From positions 1-37,393 of the IMG/VR virus record IMGVR_UViG_3300033553_000509: a stretch of DNA of 37,393 bases; one strand, 5' to 3'. A program made the position numbers and the translations under genes. This DNA is from a virus. Under the pieces are notes generated by a model. The model saw nothing but the letters and a program-made list of their open reading frames with translations. It made no database searches and was not told where the DNA came from. Below, piece after piece: positions 1 through 37,393 of this stretch. Position 1 is the stretch's first letter, and every line of letters begins with the position of its first letter.

Positions 1-318
1 CTCTTACAGATAATTTCTCAAAGCCAACCGTAACCATTTTTTAGGCTGGATTTAAAAAAATATCAGGGAAACCTGAGGGGTCGTTGTGCCTTATGTTTGA
101 ACTGTTCACTACTTTTACCCCAAAATGAAGGGCGCCAGAAAATAGGCATAGGCAAAACTGATTTCCGCTTTATATCCGAAATTATTGGAAGATGGGGTAC
201 GTTTGAGATGGTACAGTGAACATCCACATATTGCCTGATTATTTAGCCGCATGTGCAGTGAATGCAAAAGTTGCAAAAAAAAGGTGTTGTTACAGCTATC
301 GCGTGATGGCTTTGATTT
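1..318. other. Left host flank, no gene recognised
   Basis: This is host DNA that lay downstream of tRNA-His before integration. I find no convincing coding region. All frames are short and broken, and the frame entering from the tRNA repeat is only a shadow of the tRNA sequence. No clear terminator hairpin with a T-run for the tRNA operon is visible here. Confidence 0.5.
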
Positions 319-366
319 AATGGGGTGAACGACGGGGCTCGAACCCGCGACAACAGGAATCACAAT
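319..366. repeat. attL: attL core, duplicated tRNA-His 3' end
   Basis: These 48 bases are identical to 36913-36960. Allowing one mismatch the repeat extends leftward to 312 (right copy to 36906). It covers the 3' part of tRNA-His from the CCA end to the anticodon stem. Beyond 366 the match stops, so this copy is a truncated tRNA fragment and not a functional tRNA. It is the displaced original 3' end left at the far side of the prophage. Confidence 0.95.
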
Positions 367-2108: not shown

Positions 2109-5100
2109 TCAAAATTCGCTTGTTGCAGGTGTGAAGTTGCCTACATATTTTCCCTCGCCAACAACCACGGTAACCTCATCGAGATAACCGTTGATATATT
2201 CGCCGGCATTATGCGCACTTTTACCGATAATGAGTGCCGCATGCGGGATCGATGATGTCGTGGCGATATCCGAGCCGACTTGAACGCCATTCAGGAATGC
2301 GCGCAATACGCCTGAACTTCTGCACAGCGCGCAATGCACCCAGGCCCCGGTAGGCACTGTGCAAGAGAAGGTTTTCTGCACGCCGAGCACATAGGCTTCA
2401 ATACGGTTTGACTGCAATCTGAATAAAATGCCGGTGGTGTAACTGCCGATATTCAGAATGGTTTGCAGGCTCGGGCTGAATGAACTGATGTAGACCCAGG
2501 CTTCCAGGGTAAAATCATCCGTGCCGATTTCAAAATCGGTGCTGTCGGTGACGGTCAGGTATTGCCCTGATCCGCTGATGACCAGACTCGCCCCACCAAA
2601 TTTGCTTTGCGCGGTGCTGGTTGTGGCCAAGGTTGGCGTGACCGTTTTCTGATTGGCGGAACTATCGATAAACGTCGTGCCGCCATTCGCGCCGTTGCAA
2701 TGCAAGAGCAAGGCATAGGCATAAATGTCAGGAAATCTCACGGTCAACGGATAGCCACGGCCAACAATAGCCGATAATTGATAAATTTTGACATACAAAG
2801 TGCTTTGATTCGAGCCGAAATCTGCGAATTGCTGCGCGCTGGTATAAGCCGCCGTTGGTGCGCTAACGGACAGAGTGCGCTTCAATGTCGCATAGGTGTT
2901 GCTTGAGAATATATCGATTTCATACGCTTCCGAAGCTTCCGCCAGATCCGCATCCACATAAGACCGCCAGCCGGCATAACGGGACCGCCGCGTCCAGGTT
3001 AGCGTCCAGTCGTTTGTCGTTGGGTGCCGTGATCCAGTCAACGCGCAAGGGCTCAAAGGCTCAAGGTTAACCGCATTATAAGTAAATTCCCTGTCTTCAT
3101 CGCTATCGATCAACTTGCCCTGGGTAATGCCGCGATAGGTCCTGGAAACGCCGATCAGGGCGGTATTGGTCAGAATGAATTCCAGCTCCGTGCTGCTGAG
3201 ATGCACAAGCGCATCGCCTACAGCGTGCAAACCGGTCGCCCATTCCGTGCCCATCTGCCCGCGCAGGAAATCGGACAGGATATAGGTGCCATCGCCCTGC
3301 AATACGCAATTCTGGGCAGCTATGACCTCGTAGCGGCCATTTACGCCATAAGCGAACCAGTTGCTGCCCGCAAACATTTGCGCCTCTGTAACGCTCGATA
3401 ATTCGCCGTGATAGAGCCGCACCGTCAACAGACTGGATTTATCCAGCACCGTTCCTCCATGAGCGCCAAGCGCAGTCGAAGCAAAGCCCATCGTCGCCCC
3501 CGGCGGCTGCACGGACTGTAAATAAATCCAGCTCTGCCCGCCGTCATCGGTCACCAGCAATTCGCCGCCCGTCCAGCCGGCCAAACGCCCAGCCATCGCC
3601 AGCGGATAACCGGCGTAATCATAATTGTCCTGAAGCAGCGGAATATCCAGAATTTCATAGACAGTCGGCCCCGGCAGCAGCACATGCACGCCGGTCGATT
3701 GCCCCGGCTCGCCGGTTATTTGCGCCTGGCTGTAGAGCGCAGCGTGGTTCAGCTTGGCCTTGCAGTCCAGGCGGCCGTCGCTGGTGTAATGGATACTGGT
3801 CAGGCGCAGCTCGAAAACGCCATTTTCGGTCGTGATCGTAATGATGTCAACCGGCTCCAGATACGCATAAACAGGCGGCAGGCTGAAGGCCAGATCGTAG
3901 CGCTCCAGCCAGTACAGATACAGCAAGGTTGCGGCCTTTTGCGCGCCTTCCGCCGTGGTCAGGCAAATCGCCAGATCAACTTCGTTGACATTGACCGCGC
4001 CGGTATTGATGCGCTCCGCATATTGATTGCCGGTGTCGTATTCGCGCTCGACATCGTAAAATTTGACGGAAACTTTAGCGGGTAAAATAGTTTCCATTTC
4101 CCTTGAAGTCAAAAACTGTACGCCCGGCGCTTTGCCCGCTTCCCGCGCGTCCAGTTCTTCATGACTAATGCTGGCGATAGAGCTTAAGCCTCGCAGAATG
4201 TATTTTATCTTATAACCGCTCTGCACCGCGTCGAAAAACCACGACGCCTGCAAGGGTTCGATGACCGAGCGGATGGTGCTGACCTGGCCGATCTTGTAAC
4301 CGCGCACCATCGGCACCAGGCTGGTTACATCGATATCGCCAGCCGTTAAAAGATTGCTTTGCAGCGTTTCGGCGCTGACGATTTCAGACAGCGGGATTTG
4401 ATTAGAGGCTATCGTGGGTTCGATGAAAAAGAAAGTTTGCAAGCGGTCATTGACATAACCATCTAAATAACTCGATCCGGCGACATAAATCCAGGTATCG
4501 CTGGCGGCTATCGACATATCGCCATAGGTGAGTCCTCCGGCAATCGCAATGGAGCCCACAAAAACCGGATCAATAGGCGTTTCCAGCCGGAAAACCTTGA
4601 GCAGACCGCTGCCAGCGACATAAAGATGATTATTAACAATGGCCAGGTCTTTAATATCGCCAAAAACGCCCGCCAAAATTGCGGAGTTGAATACTGAAAC
4701 CGGGCTTGCCGGTGTACTGATGTCGAAAATTTGCAAATTACTATAGTTACTGATTACATACAAATAATTGCCGTCAATCCGGCATTTCGTGACACCTGTT
4801 GCATCTTGAAGTGATACTGTGGTCACAATAACCGGATTACTGCTATTCGCTATATCAACAACTATCAAGCCAGAAGCGCTGGTGATAAAAGCATAATCGT
4901 CAAACAGTTTAATATCGCGGGCGGCTACCGTGTTTAAAGACAATTTTGCGGCAGCAACCGGATGCTTAATATTGCCTGTATCGATGATATGCAGATAAAG
5001 TAAAGTCAGACAATATACGTTTAAACCCTTGACGGCGATTTTCAAAGGGCTATAGCCATCATTCAGTATCGTCGTACTGACCAGGGACGGCGCCGCTTTG

Positions 5101-17599: not shown

Positions 17600-18339
17600 G
17601 GGTAATTCCTGGTTTCAGCGTCAATAAGTAAACTTCTGGTTTCAGCGCTGACGCTGTAAGAGCGGTCAACGGATTGCGAGCGCTCCGGGTAGCCGGACGC
17701 GGCGAAACCATCAAACCCGGTTTCGTTGGCGGCAAATGTTCCGGAAATCAGTATCAAGCCTGTTGCCAATGCCAAATCCTGGACGCTTTCAGTGAGTGCA
17801 AAGCCGCCGGTAATAATGATATAGGCGCTGGCTGCAAGCGTATCCATGCCGGTTTCGGCTGCATTCAGGCTGCCGGTGATTGCAGGATAAACAACCGTAC
17901 CGGACGCTAACAGCGCATCTATGCCGCTTTCGATAATGGCAAAATTGGCGGTTATTAACATATCGCCGCTGGCAGCCAATGTATCCATGCCGGTTTCGGC
18001 TGCATTCAGGCTGCCGGTGATTGCAGGATAAACAACAGTTCCTGTCGCTATCAGCGCATCGATTCCGCTTTCTATAATGGCAAAATTGGCGGTTATTAAC
18101 ACAGCGCCGCTGGCAGCCAATGCGTCAATACCGGTTTCGGCTGCTGCAAATGTGCCTGAACTTGCCCCGGAATAGCGGGCATATAGCACTTCAACCGCTT
18201 GCTGAGTGACGCGGGCCTTGGGTACAGCTGAACTTGTGTAGAGAACCTCAACCGCTTGCTGAGTGACGCGGGCTTTTGGAACCGCCGAACTTGTGTAGAG
18301 AACCTCAACCGCTTGCTGAGTGACTCTTGCTGCGGTCAT
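17596..18339 (-). CDS. Repetitive head fibre-like protein
   Basis: The 247-residue protein starts with three 19-residue repeats (ARVTQQAVEVLYTSSAVPK), of a type known in phage head or neck fibre proteins, then about three degenerate copies of a 47-residue unit rich in Ala and Gly (ESGIDALLASGTVVYPAITG, then SLNAAETGMDTLAAS). It ends with a Tyr/Arg-rich tail. Repeats of both sizes are also clear in the DNA, so copy number may change by slippage. It is probably an elongated surface fibre. Confidence 0.7.
   Translation of the reverse strand: MTAARVTQQAVEVLYTSSAVPKARVTQQAVEVLYTSSAVPKARVTQQAVEVLYARYSGASSGTFAAAETGIDALAASGAVLITANFAIIESGIDALIATGTVVYPAITGSLNAAETGMDTLAASGDMLITANFAIIESGIDALLASGTVVYPAITGSLNAAETGMDTLAASAYIIITGGFALTESVQDLALATGLILISGTFAANETGFDGFAASGYPERSQSVDRSYSVSAETRSLLIDAETRNYP
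17838..18335. repeat. Tandem repeats inside the fibre gene
   Basis: A 141-bp unit beginning near 17841 recurs at 17982 and partly at about 18123. A 57-bp unit recurs three times with TCAACCGCTTGCTGAGTGAC at 18191, 18248 and 18305. Both periods are multiples of three, so gain or loss keeps the frame. Confidence 0.85.
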
Positions 18340-19359
18340 TTAAGGAATTTCTAGTGTGGATAGAAGCGAATTAACCGTTGTTGGCGTGAAAGCCGTGCTT
18401 GCTCCATCAGAGGTTTCAAACAGATCGATGAAATTAGCGTAGCCGACGCCTAGCGCGTGAACTACTTGCTGATCGGTTGCGCCGGACTTGATGCCGGTTT
18501 TCAATGACAACGGGTTAGCGTCGTCTTTCTCAGCGCGAGTGACCAGTTTAACTCCGGCAACGGCATTAACTCCGGTCAGGTCGCTGAGACCGTATTCGTC
18601 TTTTTGCGCTGACGTGCTGGAGGAAACATAAGTGGTATCGTCATCCGGTGCGCCGATAGCGTCATCAACCGCGCTGAAATTACTGGCCCCGGTGTTGCGC
18701 GCCCAGGCCACCGTGCTGTCTGAGGTGGGCGTCATGATTTCGCAGCGTTGTTCGCCAAGATAAGTGTTGTTGGCGGTGCCGTCCGAGTTCAACAGATAAA
18801 AATCGTCTATTAAAATAGTCGTTGCCCCCTGCCAATTCTCCAAAGCAACACTCGCCACTTCATCGGTACTCTGTTGTTGCGTATCCCCTGTAAATGTAAA
18901 TTCAGAAGCGCCATTTAACCGGCAATCAAAAATTCCTCCCGTGTTAGCGACCAGTAATTTCAGCTCTACGTAATACCAGGTATTATTTTGCAGCGCGGTT
19001 GTGCCTGTTGCAAGGATAGTTGACCTGTTGCCAGCCAAGGCTTGCAGAAACCCCTCCGCAGTAATATTCAAGGCAATTTGCACCGCTAACGCGGCATTAT
19101 ACAGCGCGAACACATTGGTCGCTATGCCGCTCGATCTATTAACAGCGAACCCTGCAAATAAGGTCTTTGCGGTTTGCACCGGATTCATAAGATAGCGCGC
19201 TTGTTTATTAGTCCCGGAATTTATCTGTATGGATTTGCCGCTACCCACCCTGACAGTAGAACTTATCGCCATAGCAGTCTGGGATATCCACCCGCCAAAA
19301 TTAGTTAAATCCGCCGCCGCATCATAGCCGTCGAAGCCATCAAAAAATAATAAACTCAT
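18340..19359 (-). CDS. Lectin-fold structural protein, 339 aa
   Basis: The protein begins MSLLFFDGFDGYDAAADLTN and has an N-terminal domain of about 200 residues with jelly-roll pattern (NTWYYVELKLLVANTGGIFD, then CRLNG), as in concanavalin-like phage proteins, followed by a second domain (EQRCEIMTPTSDSTVAW). Proteins with this 'DGFD-Y' start are encoded in many siphoviruses among capsid decoration or fibre genes. It probably binds carbohydrate on the host or stabilises the capsid. It lies one base from the fibre gene and directly after the 125-residue gene. Confidence 0.65.
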   Translation of the reverse strand: MSLLFFDGFDGYDAAADLTNFGGWISQTAMAISSTVRVGSGKSIQINSGTNKQARYLMNPVQTAKTLFAGFAVNRSSGIATNVFALYNAALAVQIALNITAEGFLQALAGNRSTILATGTTALQNNTWYYVELKLLVANTGGIFDCRLNGASEFTFTGDTQQQSTDEVASVALENWQGATTILIDDFYLLNSDGTANNTYLGEQRCEIMTPTSDSTVAWARNTGASNFSAVDDAIGAPDDDTTYVSSSTSAQKDEYGLSDLTGVNAVAGVKLVTRAEKDDANPLSLKTGIKSGATDQQVVHALGVGYANFIDLFETSDGASTAFTPTTVNSLLSTLEIP

Positions 19360-32112: not shown

Positions 32113-32898
32113 ATGAACACTGATTTAGTCGTGACAAAGGACAACAAACTGATCCAAAGCTTTGGCTTTGAGTTGTCGTTGTATGAGCAGCGCGTCCTGT
32201 TGCTGTGCATAGCCAAAATGGATTCACGGAAAAAACCGCCCTGCAATACTTTCACCTTGCATGTGGATGAATTTCATCAGGAATTGGGACTTAGCAAAAA
32301 AGCTGTTTACGATTATCTGGATGACGCAATTTGCCGACTGTTTGAACGCAGTATTTATCTCGATCCCAATGAACGCAAATCAAAAATGCGCTGGCTGATG
32401 CGGAAGGAATACAAAACGGGTCAAGGGCAAATTACCATCAGCTTCACGCCGGAAGTAATGACCTATTTATCGGATTTAAAAAGCCGCTTCACCAGCTACA
32501 AGCTGAAACACGTTAGCCGCTTTAAAAGCGCTTATAGTTTCCGCTTTTACGAATTGTTTTGCAGTTGGAACGGCAGACAGGAATTAAAGCTGGAAGTAGC
32601 CTGGATCAGACAGGCGCTGGAACTTGGAGATAAATATCAGGATATCAGTGATTTAAAGAAAAACGTCATCATTCCTGCGCTTGACGATATTAACTCCTCT
32701 AGCGATTTGAACGTGACATTTACCCAGGTGAAAATAGGCAAGTTCATCACCCATTTCATATTTACCTACGTACCCAAGAACCCGGTAAAAAAGCCGAAAA
32801 AGCTTACCCATGCGTTTATCGAAAAGAACGCCAGACCTGGAGAAACTTGGCAACAAGCGCATGATCGTTTAAAAAATGACAATTTAAAGTATGGATAG
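32113..32898 (+). CDS. Rep_3-family plasmid replication initiator
   Basis: The 261-residue protein has the Rep_3 (RepB-type) pattern: SFGFELSLYEQRVLLLCIAK at the N-terminus, LGLSKKAVYDYLDDAICRLF, and the second winged-helix block (KHVSRFKSAYSFRFYELFCS). These proteins bind iterons as monomers and melt the adjacent origin. Iterons and a DnaA box lie directly upstream. Length fits the family. The C-terminal tail (KNARPGETWQQAHDRLKND) is basic. Such a protein suggests plasmid-like replication of the phage, or a captured plasmid origin. It overlaps the next gene by eight bases. Confidence 0.92.
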   Translation: MNTDLVVTKDNKLIQSFGFELSLYEQRVLLLCIAKMDSRKKPPCNTFTLHVDEFHQELGLSKKAVYDYLDDAICRLFERSIYLDPNERKSKMRWLMRKEYKTGQGQITISFTPEVMTYLSDLKSRFTSYKLKHVSRFKSAYSFRFYELFCSWNGRQELKLEVAWIRQALELGDKYQDISDLKKNVIIPALDDINSSSDLNVTFTQVKIGKFITHFIFTYVPKNPVKKPKKLTHAFIEKNARPGETWQQAHDRLKNDNLKYG

Positions 32899-33452: not shown

Positions 33453-33727
33453 TGAAAACTCATCGCCACATTGTATCTTCATGCCCGGTTTGTAAAGAAA
33501 AACTGGATGCCGCAAGCAATGCTGAGGTTTCCGTTCAATCACCACCGAAATGCGGCGATGTATCTATCTGCTTGTATTGCTCATCGTATCTGATTTTCGA
33601 TGAAGATCTCACCCTTCAATTATTGTCAGAAGAAGATTTGCTGGAGTTGCCTGATGAGACATTTCACTTGTTGTCAAGAGCGCGAAAAGAAATAAAAAAG
33701 CTAAAGCAAAAGCGGAATAAAAAATGA
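33452..33727 (+). CDS. Zinc-ribbon protein, 91 aa
   Basis: Start at ATG 33452, coupled to the previous stop (TAATG). Cys pairs SCPVCKEKLDAAS and SICLYCSSYLIFD form a zinc ribbon; an acidic region and a Lys/Arg-rich tail (ARKEIKKLKQKRNKK) follow. A nucleic-acid-binding role is likely. The stop overlaps the next start by four bases. Confidence 0.7.
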   Translation: MKTHRHIVSSCPVCKEKLDAASNAEVSVQSPPKCGDVSICLYCSSYLIFDEDLTLQLLSEEDLLELPDETFHLLSRARKEIKKLKQKRNKK

Positions 33728-33936
33728 GCCCAATCATCACCACAGCAGAATTGAAAGCAGCCTATAACTGCAAGCGCACCAGCGAGCTCGAAGAGCGTTT
33801 GCGGAAAAGCGGCGTGCGTTTTCTTTACGGTAAAAACGGCCCGTTTACCACGCTGGACGCGATTAACCTGGCGATGGGCATCAGCGCCGGGAAAACGGAA
33901 GAACCACAGAAACCGCTTAAGATTGATGTAATTTAA
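33724..33936 (+). CDS. Small DNA-binding-like protein, 70 aa
   Basis: The pattern ELKAAYNCKRTSELEERLRK followed by SGVRFLYGKNGPFTTLDAIN resembles small winged-helix or DUF4224-type phage proteins. It lies in the Rep-to-integrase operon, where excisionase-like proteins are often found, so a recombination directionality factor is one possibility. I cannot confirm it. Confidence 0.6.
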   Translation: MSPIITTAELKAAYNCKRTSELEERLRKSGVRFLYGKNGPFTTLDAINLAMGISAGKTEEPQKPLKIDVI

Positions 33937-33950
33937 CCTTGGGAAATAAA

Positions 33951-34190
33951 ATGAATGCGAATATAGAATTGACAGCCAATCTGCCGGATATTTTAGAGCA
34001 AATGGCACAGCAGATCCGCACCGATATGCGATCGTTCACGTTGAGCGAGACGCCGGAAGGCCCTGCGATAACCTGCCACGCTTGCGGAATGACCTGCGCT
34101 ATGTGCGCGCCGACCTTGTGGCTGCTGCGCTGCCCGCGAATTGGAAAGAGGACAAGGAATGGCGAGCACTTGCGGAAGCTCTTGGACTGA
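33951..34190 (+). CDS. Cys-rich protein with disrupted C-terminus
   Basis: The N-terminal half (IELTANLPDILEQMAQQIRT, then AITCHACGMT) looks like a zinc-binding phage protein. After GMT the frame turns into a low-likelihood sequence (CAMCAPTLWLLRCPRIG), while the alternative frame encodes a plausible helical end (RNDLRYVRADLVAAALPANW, then LGLTPNAELTGRGSES). A small deletion at the shared word GCGGAATGACC would explain both. The stop lies one base before an attC-like site, as in integron cassettes. Start ATG 33951 is preferred over a TTG at 33939. Confidence 0.5.
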   Translation: MNANIELTANLPDILEQMAQQIRTDMRSFTLSETPEGPAITCHACGMTCAMCAPTLWLLRCPRIGKRTRNGEHLRKLLD

Positions 34191-34191
34191 C

Positions 34192-34280
34192 GCCCAACGC
34201 AGAGCTAACCGGGCGCGGCTCGGAAAGCTGAAAAACAACACCGCATTATAACCGCGCTCCGGTTGAGCGCAGGGTTAGAT
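34192..34280 (+). repeat. attC: attC-like integron recombination site 1
   Basis: Ends are GCCCAAC (fits RYYYAAC, 34192-34198) and GTTAGAT (fits GTTRRRY, 34274-34280). Internal arms AACCGG-GCGCGG (34207-34218) and CCGCGC-T-CCGGTT (34252-34264) pair over 12 bp with T34258 left unpaired, the extrahelical base expected in attC. The loop is about 33 bases. It lies one base after a stop codon and is followed by GGAG and a short gene. Confidence 0.8.
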
Positions 34281-34294
34281 ACTGGAGACAAAAA

Positions 34295-34489
34295 ATGACA
34301 GAATTTGAACAGGGTGTACTTTACGCAGCAGCACTTGTGGTTGCATTGCGCGATGAACCCGTAATAGCAGCGTCAATAATACGCGAAGCTGGTCTTGCTA
34401 ACGCCGATATAAGCAGTCTTGATGGAATTGACCAACGCAATTTGATGAAACTTATCGGCGAAAAGGGAATTAATTTTCGCGGTGTCTAA
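34295..34489 (+). CDS. Cassette-like gene, 64 aa
   Basis: The gene starts 15 bases after an attC-like site with a CTGGAGA ribosome site, the normal spacing for an integron gene cassette. The protein (LYAAALVVALRDEPVIAASI, then IREAGLANADI) is small and helical, with no recognised domain. Its stop lies inside GTGTCTAACGC, a sequence fitting the first box of an attC, but the rest of that site is missing and the integrase start copy follows. Confidence 0.6.
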   Translation: MTEFEQGVLYAAALVVALRDEPVIAASIIREAGLANADISSLDGIDQRNLMKLIGEKGINFRGV

Positions 34490-34503
34490 CGCAATATATA
34501 CGA

Positions 34504-34576
34504 CAATGAAAAAACCCGGCCGTAAACGCTTCAGCAAAAACATCCCGGCGCACATCGATGCCGCCAAGCTGCCAGA
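34504..34576 (+). repeat. Duplicated integrase 5' end, left copy
   Basis: These 73 bases match 35186-35258 with two changes. The right copy is the start of the integrase gene; this copy provides the ATG and first 24 codons of a different gene. The two copies bracket a 609-base AT-rich insertion. Confidence 0.9.
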
Positions 34577-34802
34577 GCATATTGATGATGGGAAATGCGA
34601 TTGTCTAAATTATTACGGGGATGATCCAAGAATTGAGAAAGGGATTGTTGAAGCTTGTCCCAGTTTAAAAGCTGATTTTAAAAGACGAGAAGAACATAAA
34701 GTTTTCTTAAAATCAGTAGATTATTTAGTAATAGATGCAAAGTTGTCTGGATCAGTTACTTTAACATATGACCAAATATCAAAGATTAGAAAATATTTAT
34801 GA
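34506..34802 (+). CDS. Chimera: integrase N-terminus fused to unknown protein
   Basis: The first 23-24 residues (MKKPGRKRFSKNIPAHIDAA) equal the integrase start. The remaining 75 (HIDDGKCDCLNYYGDDPRIE, then KADFKRREEHKVFLKSVDYL) are unrelated and AT-rich in DNA. The gene appears to borrow the integrase start codon and ribosome site. It overlaps the next gene by four bases, so the pair forms a unit. The function of the foreign part is unknown; a two-gene defence or toxin-antitoxin unit is possible by context only. Confidence 0.6.
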   Translation: MKKPGRKRFSKNIPAHIDAAKLPEHIDDGKCDCLNYYGDDPRIEKGIVEACPSLKADFKRREEHKVFLKSVDYLVIDAKLSGSVTLTYDQISKIRKYL

Positions 34803-35191
34803 GTCAAATTAAACATCCAATAGACTACAGTTCACACCTAAAAGAAGTAATGGCTGAAATAAAGGCAGTTTTGAAAAAACATGATATCGCCGCTTATATT
34901 TTGCTTCAAAAGCCTGGATTTAGCGAATATCTGATAGCAATTGAACCAACTTGGTCAATATTGAGAATTGAAAAAAACGGCATCCGTATTCGCTCCAAAT
35001 TGGCCGATGATTTTGCTGGCGATATAGATGCAAAACACAAAGCTGATGAAAGTACGGCATCACTTGTCCGACATTTCGCAGACATACTCAAACGTGATGC
35101 TAAGCTTTTTGAAGATATTCACTCAATATTGCTAGAGCATTGGAAAATTACCCATACTGCGGGAACTCATACACCTCATCGGCCCCAATGA
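34799..35191 (+). CDS. Unknown AT-rich gene before the integrase, 130 aa
   Basis: The protein (SSHLKEVMAEIKAVLKKHDI, then AIEPTWSILRIEKNGIRIRS) has no recognised domain; it reads as an alpha/beta core with a helical end (LVRHFADILKRDAKLFEDIH). Its stop codon TGA is formed by the integrase ATGA, so the last bases come from the 73-bp repeat. GC content is clearly lower than that of the integrase. It is coupled to the chimeric gene upstream and to the integrase downstream. Confidence 0.65.
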   Translation: MSQIKHPIDYSSHLKEVMAEIKAVLKKHDIAAYILLQKPGFSEYLIAIEPTWSILRIEKNGIRIRSKLADDFAGDIDAKHKADESTASLVRHFADILKRDAKLFEDIHSILLEHWKITHTAGTHTPHRPQ

Positions 35192-35258
35192 AAAAACCCG
35201 GACGTAAACGCTTCAGCAAGAACATCCCGGCGCACATCGATGCCGCCAAGCTGCCAGA
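35186..35258 (+). repeat. Duplicated integrase 5' end, right copy
   Basis: This copy contains the true integrase start (ATG 35188). It differs from 34504-34576 at two positions, both silent or conservative in coding terms. The small divergence suggests the two copies came from related but not identical phages, or that the duplication is not recent. Confidence 0.9.
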
Positions 35259-36303
35259 TCGCGTCTGGTTTAATGTCTCGGGATCAGGCAAATGGATGCT
35301 CAATTACTACGATGAAACCGGCAAGCGTTTAACCCGAAGGCTTTGCGGCCCGGATGCCAAGCTTGCGGAAATCTGGCAGGCCGTCGAAGCTAACCAGGTC
35401 AAGACCATCGCCACTTTCGCCACGCTGTCAGCCGAATTCCAGCAAACCCACCAATGGCACAAACTCAGCCCGCTGACGCAAAAGGATTATTTATTCTGCC
35501 GCCAGGCCATCATCACCCGCGACACCACCAACGGCAAACTGGGCGACGTGCCGCTGAGCCAATGGACGATCGGCCTGATCAGGAAGTACAGGGACAAGCG
35601 GGCGGAAGATTCCGAATCCAGAGCCAACAAGGAATTGAGTTACATCAAGCGGGTGTTCTCATGGGGCTATGAATACGAAAAAATTAGCGTCAACCCGGCC
35701 GCCGGCATAAAAAAGATTGCTCTGCCGCCGCGACAGCATTACGCCGAGGATCGGGATTATTACTTTATGCTGAATGTCGCCAGGCAAAGCGGTTATTACT
35801 ACGTATATCATGCGATGGAACTGGCTTTTCTTTGCCGGATGAGGCTTTGTGAAGTGTTGGCACTGAACGACGCCCAGGAACTTGAAAACGGGCTTTTGAT
35901 AAAACGGAGGAAGGGCAGCCGGACCAATATTGCCGAATGGAATGACCGTCTGCGCACAATCTGGGACGATTTGAAGCAAAAACGCGCGGCAATCCTCCAG
36001 GATCGCCGCCAGCCATCGCCAATCCGGGCGGAAGACCGCTATCTGTTTGTTAGCGAACATACCGGAGACCGGATAAACGAGCATACCTTCAAGACCGCCT
36101 GGCAGCGGGTCATGAAACAGGCGGAAGAACAAGCAGCAAAAGATGGCGTGGAATTTACAAGGTTTACTTTCCACGATTTGAAGAAGAAGTCGATATCGGA
36201 TTTTAACGGCGACAAAATGGCCGCATCAGGACACAGGACTCAGGCAATGGTTAATCTGTATGATTTGAGTATTGCTGTCGTACCACCTACAAGAGATAAA
36301 TGA
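35188..36303 (+). CDS. int: Tyrosine site-specific integrase
   Basis: The 371-residue recombinase carries an N-terminal arm-binding part, a core-binding SAM-like domain (TFATLSAEFQQTHQWHKLSP) and a catalytic domain with Arg in AFLCRMRLCEVLAL, His in FTFHDLKKKSISDF, a second His in ASGHRTQAMVNLYDLS and the nucleophile Tyr in NLYDLS. The usual second Arg of His-x-x-Arg is Lys here (HDLK), a variant I know from one phage integrase group that ends in 'Y-x-V-P'. It integrates the phage at tRNA-His. Start ATG 35188 overlaps the upstream stop (ATGA). attR lies 0.6 kb downstream. Confidence 0.93.
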   Translation: MKKPGRKRFSKNIPAHIDAAKLPDRVWFNVSGSGKWMLNYYDETGKRLTRRLCGPDAKLAEIWQAVEANQVKTIATFATLSAEFQQTHQWHKLSPLTQKDYLFCRQAIITRDTTNGKLGDVPLSQWTIGLIRKYRDKRAEDSESRANKELSYIKRVFSWGYEYEKISVNPAAGIKKIALPPRQHYAEDRDYYFMLNVARQSGYYYVYHAMELAFLCRMRLCEVLALNDAQELENGLLIKRRKGSRTNIAEWNDRLRTIWDDLKQKRAAILQDRRQPSPIRAEDRYLFVSEHTGDRINEHTFKTAWQRVMKQAEEQAAKDGVEFTRFTFHDLKKKSISDFNGDKMAASGHRTQAMVNLYDLSIAVVPPTRDK

Positions 36304-36307
36304 AAAT

Positions 36308-36463
36308 ATGAAATTGACATTATTAAACAGACTAAAACTGTGTTTTGAGATACTTACAGCAAGAAGCGGACATGCTCATACTGCACAAGAAAAAATGTTA
36401 TCAACTTTTCTTCGCGGATATGAGGCAGGCATGAAAGACGCGCGGTTTAATATTGATTTATAA
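36308..36463 (+). CDS. Small cassette-like protein, 51 aa
   Basis: Start at ATG 36308, five bases after the integrase stop. The protein (LTLLNRLKLCFEILTARSGH, then STFLRGYEAGMKDARF) is a short helical protein of a type often found in phage accessory regions and gene cassettes. Its stop codon lies inside the first box of an attC-like site, as is typical for cassettes. Function unknown. Confidence 0.6.
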   Translation: MKLTLLNRLKLCFEILTARSGHAHTAQEKMLSTFLRGYEAGMKDARFNIDL

Positions 36464-36554
36464 CGCCGTGTTAAGCGGAAAGCCGCCCGGCACGGAACTT
36501 TGAAAACACGAAATGCTTAATGGGCGGCTTGTCCGCTTGAACTAAGAGTTAGAC
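36458..36554 (+). repeat. attC: attC-like integron recombination site 2
   Basis: The right box GTTAGAC (36548-36554) fits GTTRRRY; the left box TTATAAC (36458-36464) fits RYYYAAC only in part. Internal arms AAGCGGA-A-AGCCGCCC (36473-36488) and GGGCGGCT-TG-TCCGCTT (36522-36538) pair over 15 bp with an asymmetric bulge. The loop is about 33 bases. The stop of the preceding gene is inside the left box, and GGAG plus a short gene follow the right box. Confidence 0.7.
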
Positions 36555-36567
36555 ACTGGAGATTGAA

Positions 36568-36798
36568 ATGAACGAAGAAGTCCCCGATTGGATGATAGAT
36601 GAATCGAATAAAATGCGAGCAGACAACGCGCAGTTGCAATACGCACTGGAACATTCTGAAAATGTAGTGGGCGACTTGGCGTACTTGGTAAAACAATTAG
36701 TCCACTCGATTAAAAATGACAGGGCGGACAAGGTATTGTCAGAAAGAGCAATGGACTACCTAAAACGTAAAGAACTTTTAGGATCACCATTGCGATAA
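36568..36798 (+). CDS. Cassette-like gene, 76 aa
   Basis: The gene begins 14 bases after an attC-like site with ACTGGAGATTGA as ribosome site, almost the same leader as the gene at 34295. The protein (EVPDWMIDESNKMRADNAQL, then LAYLVKQLVHSIKNDRADKV) is helical, acidic at its start, with no recognised domain. GTGTCTAACGCA follows the stop directly, the same sequence that ends the other cassette-like gene. Confidence 0.6.
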   Translation: MNEEVPDWMIDESNKMRADNAQLQYALEHSENVVGDLAYLVKQLVHSIKNDRADKVLSERAMDYLKRKELLGSPLR

Positions 36799-36847
36799 GT
36801 GTCTAACGCATGATATATGACAAAATCTAATCACATTAGGACTATTA

Positions 36848-36868: not shown

Positions 36869-36912
36869 AAAGAGCAATTTCCAGCAATTACAAAAATACA
36901 ACTTATTGATTC

Positions 36913-36960
36913 AATGGGGTGAACGACGGGGCTCGAACCCGCGACAACAGGAATCACAAT
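36913..36960. repeat. attR: attR core in the tRNA-His 3' part
   Basis: Identical to 319-366. It covers the tRNA from CCA through the T arm and into the anticodon stem. The intact tRNA continues beyond 36960, so integration restored the gene. Confidence 0.95.
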
Positions 36961-36991
36961 CCTGCACTCTACCAACTGAGCTACGCTCACC
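36915..36991 (-). tRNA. tRNA-His (GTG)
   Basis: The 77-nt transcript has an eight-base acceptor pairing that includes the His-specific extra G-1 opposite C73, anticodon loop TTGTGAT (anticodon GTG) and an encoded CCA. It is the last gene of the Pro-Arg-His operon and the phage insertion target. Confidence 0.97.
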
Positions 36992-37252: not shown

Positions 37253-37281
37253 TTGTTTTTTATGCTGTGTTAGCGCAAAAT

Positions 37282-37393
37282 AGTAATGTCCGCTTTCTCC
37301 CAAATAGAAATGTCCGCTTGTGATTAAATTCACCCCTTGTTAATACAAGGTGGATATTTTGGAAATGAAAAAGCTGATGAGTCAGAAAGAAGC
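37282..37393 (+). mobile_element. Start of an insertion sequence, cut by window end
   Basis: AATGTCCGCTT occurs at 37285-37295 and again at 37309-37319, a double-repeat end I associate with ISNCY-type elements. A short open frame follows from ATG 37365 (MKKLMSQKEA) with an in-frame GTG a little upstream, like the N-terminus of such transposases. Only 29 coding bases are visible, so the family call is tentative. Confidence 0.45.

Follow-up and report, generated by a model that had tools for sequence, protein, structure and literature searches.

The 73-bp repeat of the integrase start in this prophage is probably the scar of one illegitimate junction between the cargo slots of two related phages. 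The two genes that the repeat encloses are most likely ordinary passengers in a hotspot, between the excisionase and integrase genes (xis and int), that also collects integron gene cassettes. The window, which is the whole stretch of 37,393 nucleotides analysed here, is a complete prophage in the tRNA-His gene of a methanotrophic Methylococcales host, because it carries an att repeat at tRNA-His, encodes terminase, portal, protease, major head, tape measure and tail families, and is ∼88% identical at and to the right of attR to Methylobacter and Methylococcales contigs (L005 and L006). The tRNA-His gene (36915-36990, minus strand) is overlapped by attR and followed by tRNA-Arg and tRNA-Pro genes, and an Rfam search of the window gave only tRNAs above the gathering score. 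The protein encoded at 33724-33936 is called DUF4224-like after the annotations of related Pseudomonas phages. Features of the region are collected in Table 1.

Table 1. Coordinates of the prophage ends, the xis-int slot and the cassette-like regions in the window
Feature	Position	Strand	Remarks
attL, left prophage end (3′ part of tRNA-His)	312..366	.	55-bp direct repeat with 36906-36960, 98% identical
DUF4224-like excisionase (xis), left border of cargo slot	33724..33936	+	phrog_1266 excisionase, E 4e-10; directly 5′ of int in 17/29 distinct loci
attC-type site of integron gene cassette	34189..34284	+	two-bulge hairpin; 24-site alignment; close match in 102/301 Methylococcales genomes
Cassette ORF, 64 aa, then truncated attC end (GTCTAACGC)	34295..34489	+	relatives in 0/301 Methylococcales genomes
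Left copy of int start (probable scar)	34504..34576	+	71/73 identical to 35186-35258
Gene one, 98 aa, putative chimera of 24 int codons and AT-rich headless gene	34506..34802	+	start and first codons from left copy; no credible relative found
Gene two, 130 aa, orphan	34799..35191	+	predicted all-helical, low confidence
Right copy, real integrase start	35186..35258	+	aligns with int starts of relatives
Tyrosine integrase (int), right border of slot	35188..36303	+	PF00589 and phrog_1
Second attC-type site, 3′ of int, between two small ORFs	36455..36558	+	62.7 bits (training sequence); fold z -3.8 and -4.0
Cassette ORF, 76 aa, then truncated attC end resembling that at 34482	36568..36798	+	repeat
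attR in tRNA-His	36906..36960	.	55-bp repeat partner of 312-366

Three further features of the window were recorded. A Rep3-type plasmid replication initiator (PF01051, E 1e-35) is encoded at 32113-32898 of this integrating phage, which is possibly a phage-plasmid relative. Tandem repeats with unit lengths divisible by three lie in a phage gene region at 17784-18065 (141 bp x2) and 18182-18352 (57 bp x3). The host flank at 37278-37319 contains a short direct repeat, AAATAGNAATGTCCGCTT, in two copies 24 bp apart.

The initial annotation had described a 73-bp segment repeated with two mismatches at a distance of 682 bp, and the repeat was confirmed at these values. The runner-up ungapped match to the right copy within the preceding 5.2 kb reached only 33/73, which excludes a chance origin. 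The two differences, at repeat positions 17 and 35, change codons 5 and 11 synonymously, an outcome with a chance of ∼0.045 under neutrality; the longest exact run shared by the copies is 38 bp. Codon 24 is GAG in the left copy and GAT in the right, so that the 24 shared codons of the initial annotation amount to 23 identical residues followed by a diverging codon. The right copy supplies the stop of gene two and the real start of int, as had been proposed, and the int open reading frame is intact. The copies are 97% identical to each other and about 76-82% identical to any relative fetched.

The DNA enclosed by the copies (34577-35185) has a GC content of 35.8% versus 51% for the prophage, and the break marks a drop in GC, the left copy having ∼55% and the gene-one tail 30%. 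The two AT-rich genes first annotated there were upheld. Both frames look genuinely coding. For the gene-one tail, an open frame of such length had a frequency in base shuffles of 0.0004, and third-position GC is 0.17; the values for gene two are 0.0001 and 0.29, and third-position GC in int is 0.63. Gene one would be the N-terminal 24 residues of the integrase fused to a headless foreign protein. Its tail was also considered as a diverged duplicate of the integrase and this was rejected, the tail scoring 37 against the rest of int where shuffled tails gave a mean of 28 and a maximum of 47.

Relatives of gene one and gene two were sought widely. None were found in peptide scans of IMG/VR or by tblastn against phages at E≤1, and a plasmid search and a PDB sequence search with gene two gave none. 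The 301 Methylococcales genomes yielded one weak match for each gene: that of gene one contains internal stops, and that of gene two covers part of a long frame unrelated to it and was rejected as chance. Three weak gene-two matches were obtained from 369 genomes of the class. Pfam, PHROGs and NCBIfam gave no match, or chance-level ones, for both genes. PADLOC at E≤1 gave nothing for either; known toxin, antitoxin or defence homologues were sought there and in the other family collections, whose matches were weak and at chance level. Structures predicted with AlphaFold2 without an alignment had a mean pLDDT of 66 for gene two and 47 for gene one, and Foldseek searches of BFVD and PDB with the gene-two model returned nothing at E≤0.001. 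Promoter-like matches equalled the shuffled expectation (4 found, mean 4.0). No transposase match was found in either ORF and no inverted repeat bounds the insert, which is therefore not assigned to the transposons with target-site duplication. A defence or toxin activity of the gene pair is possible and has no support.

Gene one and gene two overlap by ATGA, and the stop of gene two sits within the ATGA of the int start at 35188. The initial annotation had taken this as the insertion tying its own translation to int. The overlap stands, but it is not peculiar to the insert, since a 4-bp overlap between xis and int is already present in 6 of the 17 loci that have no cargo between the two genes (L022, L023, L024, L025, L076 and L077). 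As a working view, the gene pair is a passenger operon whose translation may still be coupled to that of int by the ATGA overlap.

The interval between xis and int was compared in integrase loci gathered from IMG/VR, GTDB contigs and the 301 Methylococcales genomes. The counted set comprised 29 distinct xis+int loci, window included. Eight duplicate loci, eight entries without xis on the stretch and two partial integrases were left out, as were integrases below 45% identity (for example L088); the entries without xis include L002, L040 and L074, which are one contig, and L051, from the L004 contig. The slot is empty in 17 loci (-4 to 31 bp) and filled in 12 (128-3091 bp). On the int tree these states require 7 changes by parsimony, at least 4 of which are forced by starred branches. 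Contents are almost all different between loci; the common ones are attC DNA (window and L004), one gene (L009 and L010) and three stretches (L084 and L085). Nine slot proteins from relatives were scanned against Pfam: four had no match, and the matches include Dam-type and D12-type adenine methyltransferases, a PAPS-reductase-like protein and a DHH/DHHA1 protein. The same flanking genes thus enclose slots that are empty or differently filled, and the xis-int interval is a variable slot in this integrase family, whose hosts are Methylococcales.

This bears out the variable slot suggested initially, along with its proposed check, a search of prophages with the same integrase for empty sites. 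The description of the pair as accessory genes also holds, and the question of whether the two genes are always present in the integrase family could be answered: relatives of either are absent from the other integrase loci examined, bar one chance-level match to L008. The suggested defence role found no PADLOC match to stand on. Other contents enclosed by two int-start copies were also looked for and the repeat was present in 0 of the 11 other filled slots, where the int-start repeat score was ≤10 versus 67 in the window.

A mirror image of the window arrangement was found in L010. The integrases of L009 and L010 are sisters (branches 0.021 and 0.017), but their slots measure 257 and 1215 bp, respectively. 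The last 28 bp around the xis stop of L010 have a second copy (27/28 identical) 411 bp downstream, and this copy begins exactly where the homologue of the single cargo gene of L009 is cut off. The xis-end repeat score was 25 in L010 and ≤13 elsewhere. In the window and in L010 alike, a conserved border meets a truncated cargo gene at a single junction. Of the ORFs in the L010 slot, which lies on the minus strand at about 2611-3825, the first two are enclosed by the xis-end repeat and the third, a 267-aa orphan, comes after the second copy; the large L010 cargo gene had no relatives in IMG/VR.

Because the int-start copy is unique to the window (1/12 filled slots) and L010 carries the mirror scar, a junction between two slots is favoured over an insertion that copies the integrase start in order to enter at a fixed spot, as had been proposed from the window; that proposal is not sustained. 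The ancestor would have arisen where two related genomes met, either in a double lysogen with both prophages at one tRNA-His or during co-infection of a cell. The first parent would have had a cassette-filled slot running up to the int start, and the second an AT-rich operon of gene one and gene two immediately 5′ of int. A single illegitimate junction that linked codon 24 of the first int with an internal point of the second phage's gene one would give a product with xis and the cassette of the first phage, a 73-bp int remnant, truncated gene one, gene two and the whole int of the second phage. The right end of the repeat would then be the break, and its left end the point at which the slots of the two phages begin to differ. 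In L010 an internal point of a cargo gene would have been joined to the xis end. The outcome of one such junction would be two stacked cargoes.

A deletion across a tandem double lysogen could produce the arrangement of the window in a single step. Sequence matching the tRNA-His end of the window was found downstream of int in L002-L006; the double lysogen itself is inferred. The existence of two parents and the order of these events are likewise our reconstruction, as is a gene pair that travelled as a passenger and would still be translated with int. The copies should be able to recombine with each other, which would excise 682 bp and keep int whole. Three points count against the junction between two slots. 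No donor phage with gene one or gene two 5′ of int was recovered in any search, so that the second parent is hypothetical; the mirror case was seen once only; and the gene-one tail being in frame with the int start is a 1-in-3 coincidence unless it was selected.

The 97% identity of the copies, closer than to any relative fetched, would also fit a local event in one genome, in which template switching or slippage produced a second copy of the int start during capture of foreign DNA and two mutations followed. We consider this unlikely, as the insert is the end of an operon of foreign composition that runs straight into int, the L010 scar is easier to derive from two slots, and both changes are synonymous; the last point mildly favours two working int parents over one duplicated, drifting copy. 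Some islands insert at the 5′ ends of host genes and restore them with their own copy of the start. A site-specific mini-element of this kind, entering the 5′ end of int with a recombinase acting in trans and leaving the copies as its attachment ends, would fit the geometry, with the right copy rebuilding an intact int. It is nevertheless very unlikely: the 682 bp contain no recombinase match, the repeat is confined to the window among the filled slots, and the left end is crossed by the open frame of chimeric gene one instead of forming an intact element edge.

The virus record was built from sequence reads, and a repeat is the natural place for a false join, here of two phages at a common int start. 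Such an assembly chimera is very improbable, because a false join at the repeat cannot make the int-start/gene-one junction at 34576/34577, which leaves the repeat; the shortness of the longest exact run and the open, coding state of both frames also argue against it.

The initial annotation overlooked xis, as well as the attC-type cassettes that flank int on either side. Regions with R and L boxes and two extrahelical bases, as in attC sites, were found at 34.2-34.5 kb and 36.3-36.8 kb, and the cassette regions of the window span 34189-34489 and 36304-36823. The folded strand formed a two-bulge hairpin in most of the attC-type sites folded; one L004 site did not fold so alone. In the alignment of 24 sites (phage and chromosomal copies) 94.5% of cells were paired, and 6 pairs were changed on both sides versus 2.0 expected in shuffles. 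An attC model was run on the plus strand at E≤1e-5 over the window and 28 phage loci and found sites in six (window, L002, L003, L004, L077 and L081). Its training alignment includes seven of the matched sites (two from the window, three from L004, one each from L002 and L003); the matches outside the training alignment are L004 4220, L077 7344, L081 5614 and L003 3418. Sites lie 5′ of int in the window, L002, L003, L004 and L081, and 3′ of int in the window and L077. Among 11 chosen Methylococcales genomes, 5 encode an integron integrase above the curated cut-off, and the model finds sites at 3/5 of these integron-integrase loci scanned. Judged by sequence, the phage sites appear to be of the Methylococcales chromosomal-integron type, so that the slot family would also hold putative integron cassettes.

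Placement of the gene pair itself as a cassette, by a host integron integrase, was weighed in view of the attC-type cassettes directly upstream and of the integron integrases that the host order has beside such sites. This is extremely improbable: the attC model, applied to the whole window, finds no site within 34577-35188, and the boundaries of the pair are int-start copies, not attC boxes. As it lacks an attC, the pair is not a cassette.

Several details of the cassette regions were noted. A 25-bp sequence at 34482-34506 and 36799-36823 (88% identical), with the attC-like GTCTAACGC first, terminates both regions and may be a preferred end or insertion site. Similar truncated attC ends lie immediately 5′ of int in L002-L004. 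The ORF after xis (33939-34231) seems split over two reading frames ahead of the first attC, and this cassette gene is probably broken. The 64-aa cassette ORF was tried as a known host cassette and rejected on its count in the 301 Methylococcales genomes (Table 1).

Phage morons and mosaic cargo regions arise by illegitimate recombination. As in these, the accessory genes of the window are AT-rich, foreign in composition, set between conserved phage genes and variable among relatives. The window differs in that the break lies inside the start of a conserved gene and has left a readable border repeat and a chimeric gene. Overall, the repeat is best read as a clear scar of recombination within a phage cargo region of a known kind, whose integron surroundings are of interest, and the gene pair by itself is unremarkable until a function or a relative turns up.

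Clusters of attC sites and integrons in phages have already been reported (Qi et al., 2023, PMC9892861). Compared with the available part of that report, the window shares attC sites and cassette ORFs in a temperate phage, with no integron integrase noted in the window; here, unlike there, cassettes flank int, lying in the xis-int slot as well as between int and attR, in several related Methylococcales phages, and the gene pair is no cassette. In the excerpts available of the literature on integrons and phages, no description of a repeated attC position on both flanks of a phage integrase was recognised. Tha and Ith of S. aureus phages are prophage defence genes in the lysogeny region (PMC11087260), and the accessory genes of the window, also in a temperate phage, share this location; as far as the accessible part of that work allows comparison, a sequence or fold relation to the gene pair was not detected.

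At the level of sequence, the two loci give a picture of slot growth, in which each border copy (the int start in the window, the xis end in L010) documents one illegitimate join and can serve as a search target for scars of slot joining. Integron cassettes are placed in a defined slot of temperate phages, and since the chromosomes of the host order carry integrons, this is a plausible route for cassettes between hosts. More speculatively, and on balance doubtfully, the xis-int interval could be a standing cargo dock, in which host integron integrases load attC cassettes on either side of int, after which illegitimate joins stack the slots of phages resident in the same cell. If so, chromosomal-integron cassettes would travel in these phages, and chimeras such as gene one would form as a side product open to selection, for instance as a decoy at integrase arm sites.
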